A DNA stretch of 47,579 nt from Rhodopila globiformis (lineage in GTDB: Bacteria > Pseudomonadota > Alphaproteobacteria > Acetobacterales > Acetobacteraceae), in contig NZ_NHRY01000224.1 of NCBI RefSeq assembly GCF_002937115.1, forward strand, positions 1 through 47,579. The letters are read 5' to 3'. Below the pieces are notes generated by a model. That model was not told the DNA's origin, did not search any database, and saw nothing but the letters and a program-made list of their open reading frames with translations. Positions 5,579 through 46,969 of the stretch are shown one piece after another. Numbering within the stretch: position 1 is the stretch's first letter; each line of letters opens with the position of its first letter. A program made the translations under genes and the position numbers.

Positions 5579-6865
5579 TTGCATTCCGGCCGGCTGATTC
5601 GACCGGGGCCGCCGAGCCTCTCACCCATGGGCTTCGAGGCGATGGCAGGCGGTGCCTGGCGAGATCATGCTCTGACGGGCCGTATGGTGATGCGCGGCCC
5701 CGACCGGATTGCGCCGGCTTTCAGGATGCTGACCGGCCCCAGTTCCGACACGCTCTGTGCGAGCAGTTTCCTGGACCTGACCGCCGAGCCGATTATCGTG
5801 ACGGCCCCCGAGACCACCGTTCGGTACTCGATCGTGGCGTACGATCCCTGCTTCGAGGCGCTTCCGATCAGCATCCCGGCGCAGACGCCTGGCGTCTATG
5901 GCCTGACCGGGTCCGGATTTTCCGGCCAGCTTCCCGCCGGTATCACGCCGGTTCCGATGCCCGTCAGCTTCCCCATCATTCCCTTCAGGGTCGACCTGTT
6001 CTCCGCCGTCTGCGAGGATCAGACGGACGCAGCCACGGCATTCCGAGCGTCGCTCAAGATGCAGCCGCTGAGCAAATATCTGGCGGACCCTGCCGGCGGC
6101 TCGGCGAATATTGTGCCGGTCATTTCATTCGCGCCGCTGGGGTCCATCAACGCGAAGGGCGACGCATCGATCACGAAGGATCCGATCGCCTATCTCCAGC
6201 AACTCCAGGCGATCGTGGCATCCCCCCATACCCCACCCCTGTCTCCCGACGCGTAGAAGTTGTCGGAGCGCTTCGATACTCTGTTCCGTAGCGGCAATGC
6301 TGATACGGCTGTGTTCAGCGCGGCCGCCCGCAGGGCGTTCGCGGCGATCGTGAACGAATACATGACGCATGCGGGCCCGACCAACTGGACCCATTACACG
6401 AACTACGGCTGGCTCGGCGGCCAGGTGCTCGCGCGCGCGACGGCAGACGAATTCGGGCAGGGCGGCAACCTCGCCGAGACAGCCATCTATTACAACGCGT
6501 TCAAGGACATCAGCGGCCAGCCGCTCGACGGCAGCAATCCGTCCGGCTACGTCCTGACCTTCAAGCCAGAGCAGATCCCCCACCCGACGCGCTTCTGGTC
6601 GGTCAGCGCCTACACCCGGGAGACGGAGGCGGTCATCCGCAATCCTCTGCGCAAGTACAGCGTCGCCAACTGTACGCCCAGCCTGCAGATGAACCCGGAC
6701 GGATCGCTGTCCATCTACGTGGCCCCACAGCAGCCCGAGGGCGTGCCGGCCGCCAACTGGCTGCCAATCGGCGCTGGCGGGTTCACGCTGTGGCAGCGCA
6801 TCTACGGCCCCGAGGCCGGCGCGAACGAAACCTATGTCCCGCCGGGGATCGCCAGAAGCGATTGA
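5579..6865 (+). pseudogene. DUF1254/DUF1214 family protein, broken by an in-frame amber codon
   Basis: Two open stretches in the same frame (5579-6256 and 6260-6865) are separated only by a TAG at 6254-6256. Together they read as one DUF1254 + DUF1214 protein. The first part has the DUF1254 core ('SSFLDLTAEPIIVTAPET', '...RYSIVAYDPCFEAL'). The second ends with the DUF1214 segment around 'PDGSLSIYVAPQQPEG' and 'ANWLPIGAGGFTLWQRIYGP'. The N-terminus is shorter than usual by about 50 residues, and the only possible opening start is a TTG with no clear ribosome site. The gene therefore looks decayed. A sequencing error at 6254 would explain the stop but not the short N-terminus. Confidence 0.8.
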
Positions 6866-7146
6866 AGATCACACCCGGCGGGCCACGCTCCGGCCGGCGT
6901 TGCACAGGGTCGTCCGGCCGGTCCCTGGCACGACGAGAGTGCCACATCCAAATGCGGCGCAGCGTCTCGACGGCCGCAGGCGCGCATAAAGACTTGCGCA
7001 GGCAATGGCTTTGTTGCTGCGAGCGTGGATCGAGAACCCTGTCGCCGCCAAAGATGTGACCAGCCCCAACGCGCTTTGCACCGCCGGCCGAAATGCGCCA
7101 TCCTGCCCCGCAAAGGCGATCAAGCCGACGATGCGGAGGCTAACGG

Positions 7147-8280
7147 ATGTCCGAACCCCATCCCCAGGTCGTGTGCGCCCTCGCGCTGCATCCGCTGATC
7201 ACGCGGGATGCGGACGCGATCGACCAGCGCCGCGAGCTGACCGCCCCCATCGTCCAGGCCCTGAAGGACGGCGGCTTTTTCCGCATGCTGCAGCCGCGCG
7301 CCATCGGCGGCATGGAGCTGAAGCCGTCGGATTTCGCCTGCGTCACCGAAGCATTCGCCCGCGCCGACGGATCGGTCGCCTGGGTCGTCTGCCAGAGCAA
7401 CGGCTGCGCCATGTCCGCCGCCTATCTCGACCCGAAAATCGCCCGCGCGATCTTCGGATCGATCGATGGCATCCTGGCCTGGGGTCCGCCGGGCGCGCCA
7501 TTCGAAGCCGAGCCCGTTCCCGGCGGCTACCGCATCACCGGCACCTGGCGCTTCGCCAGCGGCAGCCAGAACGCCACCTGGCTCGGCGCGCACATGAAGG
7601 TCGCCGGCTTGCGGGAGGTCCGCACCCTGCTGTTCCTGAAATCCAGTGCGCAGATGGCCGACATCTGGCACACGCTGGGCCTGCGCGGCACCGCCAGCAA
7701 CCAGTACACCGTCACCGACCTGTTCGTCCCGTCCGACTACACCATGCTGCGCGACCAGCCAGCCGATCGGCGGGAGGACGGGCCGCTGTACCGTTTCACC
7801 AGCAACCAGCTGTATTCCGCCGGGTTCGCCGGCGTTGGGCTTGGCATCGCCCGCGGCCTGATCGACGCATTCCTGGACCTGCCGGCCGCCAAGGTCTCAC
7901 GCGGCGCCGGCAGGCCGATGCGGGAAAATAACGTCGTCCAGTCGCAACTGGCGCAGTCCGAGGCGAAATGGCACGCCGCCCGCGCCTTCCTGCACACCAC
8001 GCTGGACGAGGTGTACGACCACGTCGTGCGCCACGGCGAGATGACCCGGCAGCAGGCGGCGATGATCCGCCTGGCCTCCACCTGGGCGATCAACCAGTCG
8101 CGCGAGGCGGTGACGACACTGTTCCATTGCGCCGGGTCGGTCGCGGTGTTCGAGGACCAGCCGTTCGAGCGCCGGCTGCGCGATATCCACACCGTGAACC
8201 AGCAGGCCCAGGGGCGCCAGCTGCATTACGAATCGGTCGGGCAGATCATGCTCGGCCTGCCGCCCGAGAATCAATTCTAA
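7147..8280 (+). CDS. Acyl-CoA dehydrogenase family flavoprotein (HsaA/DszC-like group)
   Basis: This 377-residue protein has the fold of the acyl-CoA dehydrogenase / flavin-dependent hydroxylase group. It has an N-terminal helical domain ('ALKDGGFFRMLQPRAIGGME'), a middle beta-domain ('YRITGTWRFASGSQNATWLG', 'TLGLRGTASNQY') and a C-terminal helical bundle ending 'RDIHTVNQQAQGRQLHYESV'. The C-terminal half is of the type found in two-component monooxygenases such as HsaA or DszC, so a hydroxylase is as likely as a dehydrogenase. No flavin reductase is seen nearby. It is followed after 17 nt by a VOC protein, suggesting a shared catabolic role. Confidence 0.85.
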   Translation: MSEPHPQVVCALALHPLITRDADAIDQRRELTAPIVQALKDGGFFRMLQPRAIGGMELKPSDFACVTEAFARADGSVAWVVCQSNGCAMSAAYLDPKIARAIFGSIDGILAWGPPGAPFEAEPVPGGYRITGTWRFASGSQNATWLGAHMKVAGLREVRTLLFLKSSAQMADIWHTLGLRGTASNQYTVTDLFVPSDYTMLRDQPADRREDGPLYRFTSNQLYSAGFAGVGLGIARGLIDAFLDLPAAKVSRGAGRPMRENNVVQSQLAQSEAKWHAARAFLHTTLDEVYDHVVRHGEMTRQQAAMIRLASTWAINQSREAVTTLFHCAGSVAVFEDQPFERRLRDIHTVNQQAQGRQLHYESVGQIMLGLPPENQF

Positions 8281-8297
8281 CCAGGGGAGAACACGAC

Positions 8298-8723
8298 ATG
8301 CCGGCCCAGTCGCTCAATCATTACACGATCAACGTCCGCGATCTCGAACGCACCAAGGATTTCTACTGCGACGTCGTCGGCCTGACGGTGGGCGAGCGGC
8401 CGCCGCTGCCGTTCCCCGGCTATTGGCTGTACACCGGCGGCGTGCCGGTGGTGCACCTGGTCGGCTATCGCCCGGAACTGCCGGTGATCAACGACGGCCC
8501 GTCCTATCCCGTCCCGACCGGCCGGCTGGATCATATCGCGTTCGCCTGCAACGACCTGAAGGGCATGAAGGCCAACCTGGGCCGGCGCGGCATCAAATTC
8601 GACGAACGGGTGCTGCCGCGGATGAACATGACGCAGCTGTTCTACCTGGATCCGGACGGCGTCGCGGTCGAGTGCAATTTCGACGCCAGCGAGACCGAAA
8701 CCAAGGGCGTGCGCGGCTACTGA
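8298..8723 (+). CDS. VOC (vicinal oxygen chelate) family protein, glyoxalase/extradiol dioxygenase-like
   Basis: A 141-residue protein with two VOC half-modules. The metal-ligand positions are filled: H8 ('NHYTINV'), H79 ('LDHIAF') and E125 ('AVECNF'). The opening 'VRDLERTKDFYCDVVGL' is standard for the fold. Members include glyoxalase I, extradiol dioxygenases and fosfomycin-resistance enzymes; the substrate here is unknown. The ATG at 8298 follows an AGGGGAG site. Linkage to the upstream flavoprotein suggests ring cleavage or processing of the hydroxylated product. Confidence 0.85.
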   Translation: MPAQSLNHYTINVRDLERTKDFYCDVVGLTVGERPPLPFPGYWLYTGGVPVVHLVGYRPELPVINDGPSYPVPTGRLDHIAFACNDLKGMKANLGRRGIKFDERVLPRMNMTQLFYLDPDGVAVECNFDASETETKGVRGY

Positions 8724-41671: not shown

Positions 41672-41911
41672 ATGCGCATCACAACGAAAGGCCAGGTCAC
41701 GATCCCTGCCGACATCCGCGAGCAAGCCGGCCTGCTTCCGCATACCGAGGTCGAATTCCAGTTCGACGGCACCGACGTGCGGATCGTCCGGGCCGCCTCC
41801 CCCCGGCGGACCGATGGCCGGGGTGCCCGCGTGGTCGCCAACCTGAAGGCGCATCCGGGCGATGTTCCCATGAGCACCGAGGCCATCATGGCCTTGACCC
41901 GTGGCGACTGA
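41672..41911 (+). CDS. AbrB/MazE-type antitoxin
   Basis: A 79-residue protein starting 'MRITTKGQVTIPADIREQAG', the swapped-hairpin AbrB DNA-binding fold. The C-terminal half ('GDVPMSTEAIMALTRGD') is the toxin-binding tail typical of antitoxins paired with PIN toxins. It directly precedes the PIN gene with no gap between stop and start. The perfect palindrome just upstream is its likely operator. Confidence 0.9.
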   Translation: MRITTKGQVTIPADIREQAGLLPHTEVEFQFDGTDVRIVRAASPRRTDGRGARVVANLKAHPGDVPMSTEAIMALTRGD

Positions 41912-42325
41912 ATGACCGCCGTCCTGGTTGACAGCAATGTTCTGCTCGACGTGGTCACCAACGACACTAACTGGGCAACATGGTCGGCCAACGCCATAGA
42001 AAGCGCGGCCGACCGGTTTCGCCTTGTGATCAATGCCGTCATCTACGGCGAGGTTTCCGTTCGCTATTCGCGCATTGAAGACCTCGATACAGCCCTGCCG
42101 GACGCCATGTTCGAACGGGAGGAACTGCCATACGAGGCGGCCTTTCTGGCCGGAAAGGCATTTCTCACCTACCGGCAGCGGGGTGGTACGAAGCGTTCGC
42201 CACTCCCGGACTTCCTCATTGGTGCGCATGCCGCGGTTGCAGGATATCAGCTTCTGACCCGCGACATCGCCCGGTACCGTACCTATTACCCGCGCCTTCG
42301 CCTGATAGCGCCGGATTATTGCTGA
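41912..42325 (+). CDS. PIN-domain ribonuclease toxin
   Basis: A 137-residue PIN protein with the acidic residues D7 ('LVDSNVLLD'), E47 ('YGEVSV'), D100 ('PLPDFLIGAHA') and D118 ('TRDIARY'). It starts right after the antitoxin stop. It is the second, unrelated type II toxin-antitoxin pair of the window; the first, near 10 kb, uses a ribbon-helix-helix antitoxin. Confidence 0.9.
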   Translation: MTAVLVDSNVLLDVVTNDTNWATWSANAIESAADRFRLVINAVIYGEVSVRYSRIEDLDTALPDAMFEREELPYEAAFLAGKAFLTYRQRGGTKRSPLPDFLIGAHAAVAGYQLLTRDIARYRTYYPRLRLIAPDYC

Positions 42326-42700: not shown

Positions 42701-42961
42701 ATGCAACTCGGCAAATACGTCAAGTTCCGGGAAGAGAAGTTCGGGGGCGTCCTGTTCGAGACCCAGTCGGAGAAGGTTTACACGCTGAACCCGACGGCGG
42801 CGGCGATCATCCGGGAACTCGGCTCCGGCTGTGACGCGACGGAACTCACCCAGCGCCTGGCAGACCGCTTCCAGGCACCGATGGACACGATCGAACGCGA
42901 CGTGGCCGCGCTGATCGCCGACCTGCGGCAGAAGGGTTTGGTGGAAGACGCAAGGTCATGA
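42701..42961 (+). CDS. PqqD-family RiPP recognition protein (peptide chaperone)
   Basis: An 86-residue protein with the PqqD winged-helix features: 'VLFETQSEKVYTLNPTAAA' followed by 'IIRELGSGCDATELTQRLAD' and a C-terminal helix ending 'LRQKGLVED'. PqqD proteins bind the leader of a precursor peptide and present it to a radical SAM enzyme. ATG 42701 has a GAGG site 11-14 nt upstream. Longer starts exist (from 42488), but their extra residues do not look like protein. Its stop overlaps the next start in an ATGA junction, so it is coupled to the first radical SAM gene. Confidence 0.88.
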   Translation: MQLGKYVKFREEKFGGVLFETQSEKVYTLNPTAAAIIRELGSGCDATELTQRLADRFQAPMDTIERDVAALIADLRQKGLVEDARS

Positions 42962-43962
42962 CCCAGATCACCGGCGTCACGCCGCTGCCCGGCAGCAGCA
43001 TTCCCGTCTCCACGCCGGCGACCACCACCTCCGGCATGTTGCGCGCCCCGCTCTATGTCGCGTGGCAGGTGACGAACGAGTGCAACCTCGCCTGCATGCA
43101 CTGCATTGAGGAAAGCGGCCCCGGCAAGGCGTTCAAGGACGAACTGTCGAAGGAGCAGGTGTTCGACGTGCTGCGGCAGATCGCCGAGAACGACGTGCCG
43201 TACCTGTCGTTCTCGGGCGGCGAGCCGATGCTGCACCCGTATTTCTTCGAGATGGTGGAATACGCCTGCAGCCACGGCACGCAGGTGAAGGTGGAAACCA
43301 ACGCCCACTACCTCTCGCCGGAGGCCTGCGCCCGGCTGAAAGCGGCCGGAGTCAAGGCGGTGCAGGTCAGCCTGGACGGCGCCAACCCCGAAAGCTTCGG
43401 CCGCATGCGGGTGCGCGGCAATTTCCACCAGGTGATCGAGGGGCTGCACAACCTGCATGAAGCGGGGGTGCCGATCGAGATCAACCACTCGCCGACGGGA
43501 TTCAATGCGCATGAGATCGCCAACATGGTGGATCTCTCGGCCGAGGTGGGTGCCGACAGCTTCTACACCGGCCGCACCATGTACACCGGCAACGCGGTGA
43601 AGACCTGGGCGAAGCTCAACGCCACCGATGAGCAGTACGAGCAGTTCTTCGCCACGTTGCGCGAGAAGACCGAGCAGTACCGCGGCCGGATGCGGATCCA
43701 TTTCCACGAGATGGGCCTGCTGGAGGAGCTGCAGTACCGCCTGCACCACCCCGCGGCGCTGCTGATCGTGCTGCCGAACGGCTTGGTCAAGCTGATCAAC
43801 GCCCTGCCTTTCGTCTGCGGTGACCTCCGCAGGCAGAGCCTGACCGAGATCTGGGCACACTTCCAGCAGGCCTGGCAGGACCCGCGGGTTGCGGCGTTCG
43901 TCCACGCGCTCGAGCAGGATCCCGGCAAGACAGCGATGCTGCACCAATGGATCAGCGTTTAG
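42958..43962 (+). CDS. Radical SAM protein 1 of the peptide-modification cassette (PqqE/NirJ-like)
   Basis: The protein has 334 residues. The first 28 are a Ser/Thr/Pro-rich extension absent from the two sister proteins. The 4Fe-4S/SAM site is C42-x3-C46-x2-C49 in 'TNECNLACMHCIEESGPGK', with the SAM motif 'SGGEP' at 86-90. The C-terminal part has the SPASM/twitch-like run 'VLPNGLVKLINALPFVCGDL' and 'LTEIWAHFQQAW', but only one Cys (C287) and none of the final CxxC-type cluster ligands. Related enzymes make C-C or C-N links on peptides or trim haem side chains. It overlaps PqqD by 4 nt and UbiA by 16 nt. Confidence 0.88.
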   Translation: MTQITGVTPLPGSSIPVSTPATTTSGMLRAPLYVAWQVTNECNLACMHCIEESGPGKAFKDELSKEQVFDVLRQIAENDVPYLSFSGGEPMLHPYFFEMVEYACSHGTQVKVETNAHYLSPEACARLKAAGVKAVQVSLDGANPESFGRMRVRGNFHQVIEGLHNLHEAGVPIEINHSPTGFNAHEIANMVDLSAEVGADSFYTGRTMYTGNAVKTWAKLNATDEQYEQFFATLREKTEQYRGRMRIHFHEMGLLEELQYRLHHPAALLIVLPNGLVKLINALPFVCGDLRRQSLTEIWAHFQQAWQDPRVAAFVHALEQDPGKTAMLHQWISV

Positions 43963-44876
43963 CCGCGCCGCACGCGCGGCCGGGTCACCGGCTGCTGCGT
44001 GTCCTCAGCCTGGTCCGCTACCGGTTCTTTCTCTATGCGGGCCTGCTGCCGTACCTGCTGGGGGCGGCCTGGGCGTGGCGCGTCACCGGCTCGGTGCCGG
44101 GCACGACGTTCTGGAGCGGCCTGGGCGGCGTGATCCTCGCGGTCATCGGCGTCGAGGCGTTCAACGAATATTTCGACGCGCGCATGGGCACCGACCGGGT
44201 GTTCAACCCGGACGACCTGCCGCCGATGTCGGATGCGGTGATGTGGCTGGGCGTTGCGGGCTTTGCCGGCGCATTGGCTGTGGGCTTCTATCTGACGCTT
44301 CTCGTGGGCTGGCCGATCCTGGCGTTCGCCGTGCTCGGGGGGCTGGCCGCGGTGTTCTATGTCGCGCCCCCCGTACGCTGGGCGTATCGCGGCCTGGGCG
44401 AGACGGTGATCGCGCTGTCCTATGGCCCGTGGATGGTGCTGGGCAGCCTGTACCTGCATGCGCACACCCTGGCATCGGGGGCGCTGTGGGCGTCGCTGGT
44501 CCCGGGGCTGCTGATCATGGCGCTGGCGGTGGTGAACGCCATCCCGGACTTCCATCAGGACCGTCTGGTCGGCAAACGCAACCTCGTGGTCCGGCTGGGC
44601 CGGCAGAAAGCCGTCGGGCTGTATCTCGGGCTGGCGACAGCGGGGCTGATGGTGGCGCCGATCGGCGTGGTCGAGCGGGTGTTTCCGCCCGAGTGCCTGG
44701 TCACGCTGCTGGCGCTGCCGCTGCTGGTTTCCAGCGCGCGCAAGGCCATCGGTACCTACAACACGCCGAGGCTGTTCGTGCCGGCGATCCGCAGCATCGT
44801 CGCCTGCTATGGCGTCGCGGTGTCGCTGTTCACCCTTACGGTGGCGTTTGACGCCTGGCTGCATATGCCGGGATGA
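43947..44876 (+). CDS. UbiA/MenA-type prenyltransferase inside the radical SAM cassette
   Basis: A 309-residue integral membrane protein with about eight to nine helices. Both Mg-prenyl-diphosphate motifs are present: 'NEYFDARMGTDRV' (N73, D77, D83) and 'DFHQDRLVGKRNLVVRLG' (D201, D205). 'YRGLGE' (about 148-152) and the GKR-x4-RLG run are typical of MenA-like members. The family moves an isoprenoid chain onto an aromatic acceptor such as 4-hydroxybenzoate, dihydroxynaphthoate or homogentisate. It overlaps radical SAM 1 by 16 nt and is followed after 10 nt by radical SAM 2. No menaquinone or ubiquinone genes are near, so the acceptor is probably the product of this cassette. Confidence 0.9.
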   Translation: MDQRLAAPHARPGHRLLRVLSLVRYRFFLYAGLLPYLLGAAWAWRVTGSVPGTTFWSGLGGVILAVIGVEAFNEYFDARMGTDRVFNPDDLPPMSDAVMWLGVAGFAGALAVGFYLTLLVGWPILAFAVLGGLAAVFYVAPPVRWAYRGLGETVIALSYGPWMVLGSLYLHAHTLASGALWASLVPGLLIMALAVVNAIPDFHQDRLVGKRNLVVRLGRQKAVGLYLGLATAGLMVAPIGVVERVFPPECLVTLLALPLLVSSARKAIGTYNTPRLFVPAIRSIVACYGVAVSLFTLTVAFDAWLHMPG

Positions 44877-44886
44877 ACGGGCCGGC

Positions 44887-45849
44887 ATGAACTGGATCGA
44901 TTCGCTCGCCGCGCCGCTGTTCGTTTCCTGGCAGCTGACCCGCGCCTGCGATCTGGCCTGCCTGCACTGCTGCACCGACTCGGCCCCGAACAAGCCGCTT
45001 GCCGATGAGCTGGATGCCGACGCGGCAATGCGGCTGGCCGAGGACATCGTCCGCCACGACGTCCCGTACGTCATGCTGTGCGGCGGCGAGCCGCTGATCG
45101 TGCCCTATTTCTTCGACATCGCCGAGTACCTGGGCCGCGCCGGCGTCAAGCTGAAGATCGAGACCAACGGCCAGCGCTTCGACGCCGCCGCGGCCGAGCG
45201 TCTCAAGCGGCTGCCGATTCGCTCGATCCAGATCAGTCTCGATGGCGACACCCAGGACGTGTATGGGCGCCAGCGTCCCGGCGCTTCATTGGCGAAGACC
45301 CACGCCGCCTGCCGCGCGGTGCGCGACGCCGGGCTGCCGCTGGAGGTGACGTTCGCCCCGACCCGGATGAACATCCATCAGGCCGAGGCGGTGATCGCTC
45401 GCGCGCGGGACCTCGGCGCCTTCCGTTTCAACACCGGCGCGCTGATGCGAATCGGCCGGGCGGCGCGGCTGTGGCCGCGGATCGCGCCGTCGGAGGCGGA
45501 CTACGCGCGCTTCCGCGAAACGCTGCACCGGCAGCAGCATATCATTGACGATACAATGCAGTTTTGCCATGATCCGTTTGCAATCGAAGCAGGGTTGCAG
45601 CAGAGCCTGGGCTCCCCGCCGGCGACTTTGATGGTGCTGCCGAACGGATGGGTCAAGGTCGTTGCGGCGATCGGTTATGTCTGTGGTGACCTTCGCCGTA
45701 TGACGCTGACGGAGGTATGGGACAGTTATCGCGCCGCCTGGCGCAACGAAACGGTCCTGGACGCGATACGCCGCGCCATTGCGGCGGAAGCGGGTCACGC
45801 GGACGCAAACACCTGGCAGTCCATTCCGGACGAAGGAGCAGTGACATGA
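44887..45849 (+). CDS. Radical SAM protein 2 of the peptide-modification cassette
   Basis: The protein has 320 residues. The cluster motif is C21-x3-C25-x2-C28 with an extra C29 ('TRACDLACLHCCTDSAPNK'), followed by 'CGGEP' (65-69). The C-terminal segment 'VLPNGWVKVVAAIGYVCGDL' keeps a single Cys (C266) at the same place as radical SAM 1 and lacks the rest of a SPASM set. The shared motif S-x-P-x-K-x3-DEL after the cluster ties the three proteins together. ATG 44887 lies 10 nt past the UbiA stop. Its own stop overlaps the precursor start (ATGA at 45846-45849). Confidence 0.88.
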   Translation: MNWIDSLAAPLFVSWQLTRACDLACLHCCTDSAPNKPLADELDADAAMRLAEDIVRHDVPYVMLCGGEPLIVPYFFDIAEYLGRAGVKLKIETNGQRFDAAAAERLKRLPIRSIQISLDGDTQDVYGRQRPGASLAKTHAACRAVRDAGLPLEVTFAPTRMNIHQAEAVIARARDLGAFRFNTGALMRIGRAARLWPRIAPSEADYARFRETLHRQQHIIDDTMQFCHDPFAIEAGLQQSLGSPPATLMVLPNGWVKVVAAIGYVCGDLRRMTLTEVWDSYRAAWRNETVLDAIRRAIAAEAGHADANTWQSIPDEGAVT

Positions 45850-45992
45850 ATGACATGGTAGTCGAAACGACCAAGGCTGCCGAAACTGTGCAGGCCAAGA
45901 AGCAGAAGAGCGACCTGCCCTTCTGGGAGACTCCGAAGCTTGAGGACGTCTCCGAGCAGGTGATGGCGCAGCCCTACATCCGCTTCACCTGA
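45846..45992 (+). CDS. Putative RiPP precursor peptide, PqqA-like C-terminal core (48 aa)
   Basis: The 48-residue peptide has a Lys/Glu/Thr-rich leader (residues 1-23, with 'QAKKQKSD') and an aromatic C-terminal part from L24 to T48. The segment from W27 aligns without gaps to PqqA: W27-x2-P30-x3-D34-V35-x8-Y44-I45 against W-x2-P-x3-D-L-x8-Y-I. At the place of the PqqA Glu that is cross-linked to Tyr there is M40; E37 is the nearest acid. GAAGGAG (45832-45838) sits 7 nt before the ATG, the best ribosome site in the operon, fitting a substrate needed in excess. It lies between two radical SAM genes. The precursor role is inferred from size, position and this alignment. Confidence 0.75.
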   Translation: MNDMVVETTKAAETVQAKKQKSDLPFWETPKLEDVSEQVMAQPYIRFT

Positions 45993-46009
45993 GCCGATCG
46001 GCTGTGACA

Positions 46010-46969
46010 ATGAGCGGGCGATCGCTTGACGAGTTTGGGTCCCCGCTCTTCCTCGCCTGGCAGTTGACCAACCGCTGTGAGGCGAACTGCCTCGCATGCT
46101 GTGAGGAATCAGGGCCGGACAAGGGCTGGAAAGACGAACTCAACCGGGACGAAGCCTTGCATGTCGCCGAACAGGCGATCGGCATGGGCATCCCGTACGT
46201 GGCTTTTGGCGGCGGTGAGCCGCTGAGCGTCCCGTTCTGCTGGGACATCTTTGAAAAGCTGGCCGCGGCTGGCATCACCCTCAAGCTGGAAACCAACGGG
46301 CGCCACATCGACGACGCCGCGGCCGATCGGCTGCAGGCGATGCAGGTGCAGTGCGTCCAGATCTCGGTGGATGGTTCGACGGCCGAGGTGCACGAACGGG
46401 TCCGCCCCGGCTCCAGCTTTGATGCCGCCCTCGCCGCAATCGATCGGCTGGTGTCGCGTGGCCTGGCGCCACAGGTGGTGTTCTCGCCGACGCGGCTGAA
46501 TGTCGACGACATGGCGGCCACCTATGAGCTGGCGAAGCAGCACGGGTGCAGCGCGTTCGTCACCGGGCCGCTGATGCAACTGGGTCGGGCGGCGTGGGCG
46601 TGGGATACGCTGGCCTGCGACGAGGAAACCTGGCGGGACGCGGCGATGACGCTGCGGGCGCGGGCGATCGCGCTCGGCGGCGGGCTGATGCTGTCGATCT
46701 ATCCGTGGGGCATCCTGACGGAGCTGGACAAGCGGATCGAAAGCCCGCAGGCGATGATGCTGGTGGTGCCGAACGGCCGGGTCAAGCTGCTGAACGCTCT
46801 GCCCTTCGCGCCGGGCGACCTGCGGCGGATGACGCTGGCCGAAGCCTGGGATGCCTATCGGCAGGCCTGGAAGACCGATGAGGTGCGGGATTTCATCGCA
46901 CGCTGTCAGGCCGACCCGAATCTGCTGCGGCATGCTAACGAAACGTGGTACTTGCGGGAAACGGTCTGA
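46010..46969 (+). CDS. Radical SAM protein 3 of the peptide-modification cassette
   Basis: The protein has 319 residues from ATG 46010; a GTG at 46004 would add two. The cluster motif is C23-x3-C27-x2-C30 plus C31 ('TNRCEANCLACCEESGPDK'), then 'GGGEP' (67-71). In the C-terminal run 'VVPNGRVKLLNALPFAPGDL' the one Cys kept by its sisters is replaced, so no auxiliary cluster ligands of the SPASM type remain. The closing 'LAEAWDAYRQAW' matches the other two. It starts 17 nt after the precursor stop and is the last gene of the operon. Confidence 0.87.
   Translation: MSGRSLDEFGSPLFLAWQLTNRCEANCLACCEESGPDKGWKDELNRDEALHVAEQAIGMGIPYVAFGGGEPLSVPFCWDIFEKLAAAGITLKLETNGRHIDDAAADRLQAMQVQCVQISVDGSTAEVHERVRPGSSFDAALAAIDRLVSRGLAPQVVFSPTRLNVDDMAATYELAKQHGCSAFVTGPLMQLGRAAWAWDTLACDEETWRDAAMTLRARAIALGGGLMLSIYPWGILTELDKRIESPQAMMLVVPNGRVKLLNALPFAPGDLRRMTLAEAWDAYRQAWKTDEVRDFIARCQADPNLLRHANETWYLRETV

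Follow-up and report, generated by a model that had tools for sequence, protein, structure and literature searches.

The stretch of Rhodopila globiformis DNA analysed here, hereafter the window (contig NZ_NHRY01000224.1, positions 1 to 47,579; 47,579 nucleotides), contains a six-gene operon encoding a PqqD-type protein, three radical S-adenosylmethionine (SAM) proteins (rSAM1, rSAM2, and rSAM3), a UbiA-superfamily prenyltransferase, and a 48-residue peptide. Comparison with other genomes tips the balance slightly towards reading this operon as one that makes a lipid-soluble isoprenoid quinone, the aromatic head of which would originate from a ribosomal peptide. A more tentative proposal is that the head group is that of menaquinone. 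Radical SAM enzymes lacking a SPASM domain would carve it from VMAQPYIRFT, the invariant end of the peptide, and the MenA-type enzyme of the operon would prenylate it; this would constitute a third, ribosomally templated route, yielding MK-9 in R. globiformis and, in many Elusimicrobiota that bear an oxidase, their only respiratory quinone. Gene content, order, conservation, orthology, and co-occurrence are read directly from the genomes, and the function is what these patterns suggest. We know of no characterised isoprenoid quinone with a head group from a ribosomal peptide. Literature searches covering titles and the beginnings of abstracts revealed neither a peptide route to a quinone nor a pathway with this gene set; the initial annotation had named none either.

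The cassette is rare in the host's own lineage and recurs in a distant phylum. Among 299 genomes from the order to which the host belongs, two had an rSAM3 homologue (E ≤ 1e-30), namely the host and another member of its family, Acetobacteraceae (G211), whose rSAM3 is 69% identical to that of the window. A profile of the peptide identified the host alone among 398 genomes of its phylum and 17 carriers among 198 Elusimicrobiota genomes. Two of these carriers hold the loci L013 and L014, the two found by a contig scan with rSAM3 patterns. Across the loci compared (the window plus 18, from G211 and 17 Elusimicrobiota), the order PqqD-rSAM1-UbiA-rSAM2-peptide-rSAM3 is kept in the window, G211, and 14 Elusimicrobiota loci, and as far as sequenced it is common to 16 of the 17 Elusimicrobiota. 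The contig of L041 (G857) ends within UbiA; a polyprenyl diphosphate synthase, PqqD, rSAM1, and the start of UbiA are found at the end of contig C123. The contig of L043 (G851) is cut inside rSAM1. L048 (8264-10866, G800) is a minimal variant with only the peptide, PqqD, one radical SAM protein, and UbiA. A UbiA match occurs in all 18 loci besides the window, incomplete in L041 and in L037 (2309-2836, G872), where it covers only residues 121-295 directly after rSAM1, either a truncated gene or an assembly fault. The peptide is likewise present in 18 of 18, of which only G211, L013, and L014 are independent of peptide-based finding. This is the recurring synteny that the initial annotation had named as support, with neither UbiA nor the peptide routinely missing. 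Because the same order returns in another phylum together with a constant peptide end, the six-gene set is more than a chance association.

The peptide matched no Pfam or NCBIfam family at E ≤ 0.1. It comprises a variable leader, the segment W27xxP30xL32, and an invariant C-terminus, VMAQPYIRFT, that ends the peptide in all 19 loci. In the DNA coding for this end, 10 of 30 nucleotide sites vary, and all three stop codons are used after it; since the ten residues stay constant regardless, the constraint acts on the protein. A search of approximately 5.8 billion proteins returned 643 homologues at E ≤ 1. In the best 120 of these, ranked by likeness to the query, which overstates uniformity, EDVSEQVMAQPYIRFT ends every peptide, the N-terminal parts are all different (120), and W-x-x-P-x-[LIMVFA] stands at a constant distance from the end in 119. 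The peptides of G211, L013, and L014, found via rSAM3 and read from DNA, still end in VMAQPYIRFT, although G211 has Leu where the leader motif has Trp.

According to the available part of PMC13381572, lasso-type RiPP recognition elements (RREs; RiPP, ribosomally synthesised and post-translationally modified peptide) bind the leader motif [Y/W]xxPx[L/V/I/F/A]. The operon combines a PqqD/RRE protein with a leader of this form, as expected of an RRE-type RiPP. The spacing of Trp, Pro, and Tyr also equals, without gaps, that of PqqA-like peptides from the host's genus. In PqqA, a conserved Glu and Tyr are cross-linked; the operon peptide retains the Tyr, with Met at the position of the Glu. With the register chosen beforehand and a shuffle test, this spacing suggests a likeness to PqqA, weakest for the G211 peptide, and it is weakened by W-x-x-P-x-L being a general RRE leader motif as well. 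The term PqqA-like in the initial annotation therefore holds for the Trp/Pro/Tyr register and fails for family membership (PF08042) and for the Glu.

By sequence comparison, the operon UbiA belongs to the MenA type. Its best NCBIfam matches are dihydroxynaphthoate polyprenyltransferases, all below cut-off, including 68.2 bits against 102.15 required by the MenA equivalog TIGR00751. Both Asp-rich motifs, NEY[FY]D...G[TS]D and D[FY].QD (NEYFDxxxGxD and DxxQD in the window), occur in 17 of 17 sequences, taken from the 19 loci minus the incomplete L037 and L041. In the tree, the operon sequences cluster together (97/89) and unite with two MenA-like sequences (100/99), both of odd composition and one on a long branch, apart from CtaB, UbiA, MqnP, and BchG. 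Homologues at E ≤ 1e-40 numbered at least 2,082 among 7,999 candidates scored; names among the 120 listed include Rhodopila, Acidocella, Casimicrobiaceae, Burkholderiales, and Betaproteobacteria.

To the gene set of the initial annotation a polyprenyl diphosphate synthase must be added, an operon member located upstream of PqqD in 15 of the 17 Elusimicrobiota (family checked by NCBIfam for two loci, with scores below cut-offs). The exceptions are L043, where the contig is cut, and L048. None was matched beside the G211 operon, and no open reading frame (ORF) directly upstream in the window resembles one. Upstream of the synthase, three loci have a homologous aminotransferase-fold gene (L040 3207-4451, L044 2723-3913, L047 745-2349; PF00155, from a scan of two of them). 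Following the synthase, the PqqD ORF carries a long in-frame N-terminal extension in L013 (2421-2873) and also in L036, L038, L039, and L044.

The distribution of quinone genes in Elusimicrobiota strengthens the redox role that the initial annotation had raised as a possibility. Among the 198 genomes, 25 have COX1 (PF00115), 9 have MqnA/D (PF02621), and 17 have the peptide; peptide and MqnA/D never co-occur (0 of 198, and 0 of the 17 carriers). The 25 COX1 genomes divide into 14 with the peptide, 7 with MqnA/D, and 4 with neither, so that 21 are covered. Two Mqn genomes (G812, G816) lack COX1. A UbiA-like/MqnP enzyme over the TIGR01475 cut-off is found in all nine Mqn genomes and in none of the 17 carriers. 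Outside the operon, 12 of the 17 carriers have only CtaB or CtaB-like members of the UbiA family, and G776 has a CtaB-like and a PRK08238-like protein; several CtaB scores narrowly miss the cut-off, and the scores of G776 and G804 fall far short of it. Thirteen carriers in total have no other plausible quinone prenyltransferase, three have an unassigned protein, and one a MenA-like protein. Known quinone routes employ a UbiA-superfamily enzyme. The operon UbiA is the only candidate in 13 of 17 carriers and is of MenA type; 15 of the 17 have a polyprenyl synthase next to it, and it belongs to one cassette with the peptide, PqqD, and radical SAM genes. A peptide-derived quinone accounts for this most simply.

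A competing explanation separates two functions, with UbiA acting as the organism's MenA on dihydroxynaphthoate while the peptide and radical SAM proteins make an unrelated soluble cofactor or signal. The grouping of UbiA with MenA-like sequences and the menaquinone of R. globiformis would both fit, and enzymes supplying dihydroxynaphthoate could have been missed, and MqnA/D were not searched in R. globiformis. Against it, MenD over its cut-off (244.2 bits) was found in none of 24 genomes (the host, G211, the 17 carriers, and five other Elusimicrobiota; best score 97 bits), compared with 7 of 14 controls, MenD being the only Men gene searched. The lack of MenD over cut-off in the 19 carriers and of MqnA/D in the 17 Elusimicrobiota carriers leaves the latter with no known source of naphthoate. 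Moreover, UbiA accompanies the peptide in 18 of 18 loci, including the one with a single radical SAM gene. We consider a division into two functions unlikely. MenA-like proteins over the TIGR00751 cut-off were also observed at L069 (G800) and L073 (G704), in genomes without MenD over cut-off or MqnA/D.

Contig C252 of the host encodes a reaction-centre H protein that agrees at every one of 258 residues with chain H of PDB 7XXF, an R. globiformis complex according to the available part of PMC9640540. The membranes are stated there to contain ubiquinone, menaquinone, and rhodoquinone, and the quinone at the QA site is assigned as a menaquinone. MK-9, UQ-9, and RQ-9/-10 are listed for the species in the available part of PMC12542754. 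PMC11707229 does not mention Rhodopila, and the accessible portion of PMC10715153 states nothing on menaquinone. The host genome (98.55% complete) has five UbiA-family genes, namely CtaB, UbiA, BchG, a PRK08238-like gene, and that of the operon; no MenA or MqnP other than the operon UbiA is among them, MqnA/D not having been searched there. MenD over cut-off was absent from the host as well (ten weaker matches; other Men genes not searched). The UbiA family of G211 consists of CtaB, UbiA, BchG, and the operon member, and no MqnP type was found there, again with MqnA/D not searched. The choice of menaquinone as the candidate product follows from its presence in R. globiformis together with the MenA likeness of the operon UbiA.

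Several observations weigh against a peptide-derived quinone. Since the peptide served to locate 15 of the 18 loci, its invariance is in part a matter of ascertainment. Four COX1 genomes (G753, G790, G849, G866) carry neither the peptide nor MqnA/D and have one CtaB-like UbiA-family match each, and they either are incomplete or use another quinone source. Conversely, COX1 was not matched in three carriers (G800, G843, G855). Nitric oxide reductases probably account for some of the COX1 matches, and may do so in the Mqn genomes G761, G798, and G802, each with a single, weak match (187-220 bits) that lies in a frame of approximately 770 aa. The Fisher tests (2.5e-12 for carrier versus COX1, 7e-4 for the exclusion within COX1 genomes) ignore kinship, and shared ancestry of the carriers means that independence is overstated. 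NuoH occurs in all 17 carriers yet also in four of five non-carriers searched, and does not discriminate. Completeness was not given for the Elusimicrobiota genomes. The prenyltransferase argument has exceptions in G882 (CtaB and one unassigned protein), in G843 and G855 (one unassigned protein only), and in G800 (a MenA-like protein only, outside the operon). The unassigned proteins score weakly against prenyltransferase models, which include homogentisate phytyltransferase for G843 and a MenA model for G855. MenD-like thiamine diphosphate enzymes under the cut-off exist in 16 of the 24 genomes. The operon itself encodes no peptidase, hydroxylase, or methyltransferase. Finally, rSAM2 could possibly bind an extra cluster, as it has three further, mostly conserved Cys residues (C142 in 18, C227 in 16, and C266 in 17 of 19 sequences) and MoaA sets the precedent of a cluster bound by three Cys.

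The radical SAM proteins are closest to the MftC, AhbD/NirJ, and related NCBIfam models. Among the best 25 matches for each, the MftC model (TIGR03962) ranks first for rSAM2 (110.9 bits) and rSAM3 (115.5 bits) and third for rSAM1 (130.3 bits), far from its cut-off of 265. Pfam SPASM reached 13.7 bits in rSAM1 (cut-off 21.5) and had no match in rSAM2 or rSAM3. C42, C46, and C49 of rSAM1 (CX3CX2C), together with C287, are invariant in an alignment of 38 sequences (the window, 15 loci, and 22 picked from 120 listed relatives of the L048 protein). A structure model of rSAM1 (pLDDT 88.9) matched the folds of two peptide maturases, SkfB (6efn) best and then PqqE (6c8v). No further fully conserved Cys was found in rSAM3 in the screen of 19 sequences, which, for rSAM2 too, includes mis-assigned or truncated ORFs. 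A tree of 33 sequences (rSAM1 to rSAM3 from 9 of the 19 loci, five of the minimal type, and one PqqE-like) separated rSAM1, rSAM2, rSAM3, and the minimal type with supports of 92/99, 92/100, 100/100, and 100/99, respectively. In all three groups of the full cassette, the two Acetobacteraceae adjoin the Elusimicrobiota loci L013 and L042, a pattern that fits transfer of the whole cassette. Relatives of the L048 radical SAM protein at E ≤ 1e-50 numbered 1,180; named organisms among the 120 listed include Planctomycetes (Phycisphaerales, Sedimentisphaerales), Omnitrophica, and Elusimicrobia.

A prenylated peptide natural product, either a signal or an antibiotic rather than an electron carrier, could also be built from a radical SAM enzyme, PqqD, and a short peptide, the usual architecture of RiPPs. 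ComX is one example of a prenylated peptide signal, and the best NCBIfam match of the operon PqqD is the lasso-peptide PqqD family (55.9 bits, cut-off 70). However, the core is identical across two phyla, unlike most signals and antibiotics, and the cassette tracks COX1 and does not co-occur with the futalosine genes. Gene clusters present in at least three loci comprise the operon genes, the polyprenyl synthase, a MarR-like regulator (3), the aminotransferase-fold enzyme (3), DNA ligase, NusB, AICARFT, a histidine kinase, and two without annotation; no exporter or immunity gene is among those annotated. We regard a natural product as rather improbable. Still more doubtful is a PQQ- or mycofactocin-like cofactor for a dedicated dehydrogenase, its prenyl group serving only as membrane anchor, separate from the respiratory quinone pool: the PqqA spacing, the nearest radical SAM models, and the SkfB- and PqqE-like fold agree with it, but no dehydrogenase is found among the annotated recurring neighbours, and the lack of a second plausible quinone prenyltransferase in 13 of 17 carriers is left unexplained.

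Three further assignments were rejected. A heme pathway, suggested by the AhbD/NirJ-like proteins and by heme O synthase being in the UbiA family, was discarded on the grounds of the MenA grouping and of separate CtaB genes in the host and 14 of 17 Elusimicrobiota carriers. The set was not taken for the host PQQ operon, as contig C111 holds a PqqA-like peptide (PF08042 match of 20.3 bits, just below the cut-off of 21.1) together with another radical SAM gene. An anti-phage system was dismissed after a PADLOC scan whose sole matches were of viperin type and followed the radical SAM core.

ORFs, spacing, and Pfam matches bear out the six genes, their single direction, and their coordinates as initially annotated (Table 1). 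Overlaps of 4, 16, and 4 nt and a gap of 10 nt separate the genes, and the peptide lies 17 nt (ATG) or 11 nt (GTG) from rSAM3. The NCBIfam matches shown for the five enzymes are all under curated cut-offs.

Table 1. Genes of the operon in the window.
Product	Position	Strand	Family evidence
PqqD-type peptide-binding protein (RRE), 86 aa	42701..42961	+	PF05402, 59.3 bits
rSAM1, radical SAM protein without SPASM match over cut-off	42958..43962	+	PF04055
UbiA-superfamily prenyltransferase, MenA type	43947..44876	+	PF01040, 74.1 bits
rSAM2, paralogue of rSAM1 and rSAM3	44887..45849	+	PF04055
48-aa precursor peptide	45846..45992	+	no Pfam or NCBIfam family
rSAM3	46010..46969 (ATG); GTG start at 46004 possible	+	PF04055

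Ten of the 153 ORFs listed for the window were scanned; five had no Pfam match, one matched DUF1254, and the other four were an acyltransferase, an acyl-CoA dehydrogenase, CobW, and the large chain of carbamoyl-phosphate synthase. Two small ORFs upstream of the operon (41672-42325) resemble by eye an AbrB-type/PIN-type toxin-antitoxin pair. The cassette had no match in a plasmid collection (blastn distant mode). In L038, an additional 500-aa ORF (6840-8342) lies between the peptide and rSAM3; from its HPFADGNGR motif, seen by eye, we take it to be Fic-like.

Under the proposed quinone pathway, the 48-aa peptide would be made and would dock through its W-x-x-P-x-L segment on PqqD, a step suggested by the leader motif described for RREs and by homology to PqqD. 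PqqD would then present VMAQPYIRFT to the three radical SAM proteins, which may convert the region of the Tyr (or Phe) into an oxidised aromatic head group. Trimming would be left to peptidases encoded outside the operon. The MenA-type UbiA would presumably attach a polyprenyl chain, supplied by the synthase of the same operon in Elusimicrobiota and by one encoded elsewhere in Rhodopila, and the product would serve as a membrane electron carrier. Comparative genomics supports the initial suggestion that the compound derives from a ribosomal peptide, is prenylated and associates with the membrane, and may be a redox cofactor.

The available part of a survey of 26,264 genomes (PMC13386864) reports that no known quinone pathway was found in many lineages, nor in four species whose menaquinone has been measured. 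Gloeobacter, too, is reported there to produce menaquinone although it has no known pathway for it. If correct, our proposal would describe a new way to make a respiratory quinone, join RiPP chemistry to core bioenergetics, and offer a concrete, testable answer for some pathway-less lineages, with R. globiformis as a cultured host in which the peptide route can be tested directly.

Compared with known systems, the operon shares with PQQ biosynthesis (PqqA-PqqD-PqqE) a short precursor peptide, a PqqD-type RRE, a radical SAM enzyme, the W-x-x-P...Tyr register, and, as proposed here, a redox product. It differs in a peptide without a PF08042 match and with Met for Glu, in three radical SAM proteins without SPASM over cut-off, in UbiA, and, in Elusimicrobiota, in the polyprenyl synthase. 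Mycofactocin is a peptide-derived redox cofactor, and the operon resembles its system in the matches to MftC and the PqqD-like partner; the scores far below the MftC cut-off and the prenyltransferase set it apart, and no other mycofactocin genes were identified beside the operon. The lasso RRE and leader find a parallel in the peptide motif and the best match of PqqD, in contrast to its score under the family cut-off and to the remaining genes, which are radical SAM proteins and UbiA rather than lasso genes. With the Men and futalosine routes to menaquinone (MenA, MqnP), the operon has in common a MenA-type UbiA and, in Elusimicrobiota, a polyprenyl synthase. These two routes exclude each other according to the available part of PMC13386864, and the exclusion between the peptide and MqnA/D in Elusimicrobiota resembles this. 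Unlike either route, the operon goes with no MenD over cut-off and no MqnA/D in the Elusimicrobiota carriers, and has a peptide, PqqD, and radical SAM proteins in place of the chorismate-route enzymes.

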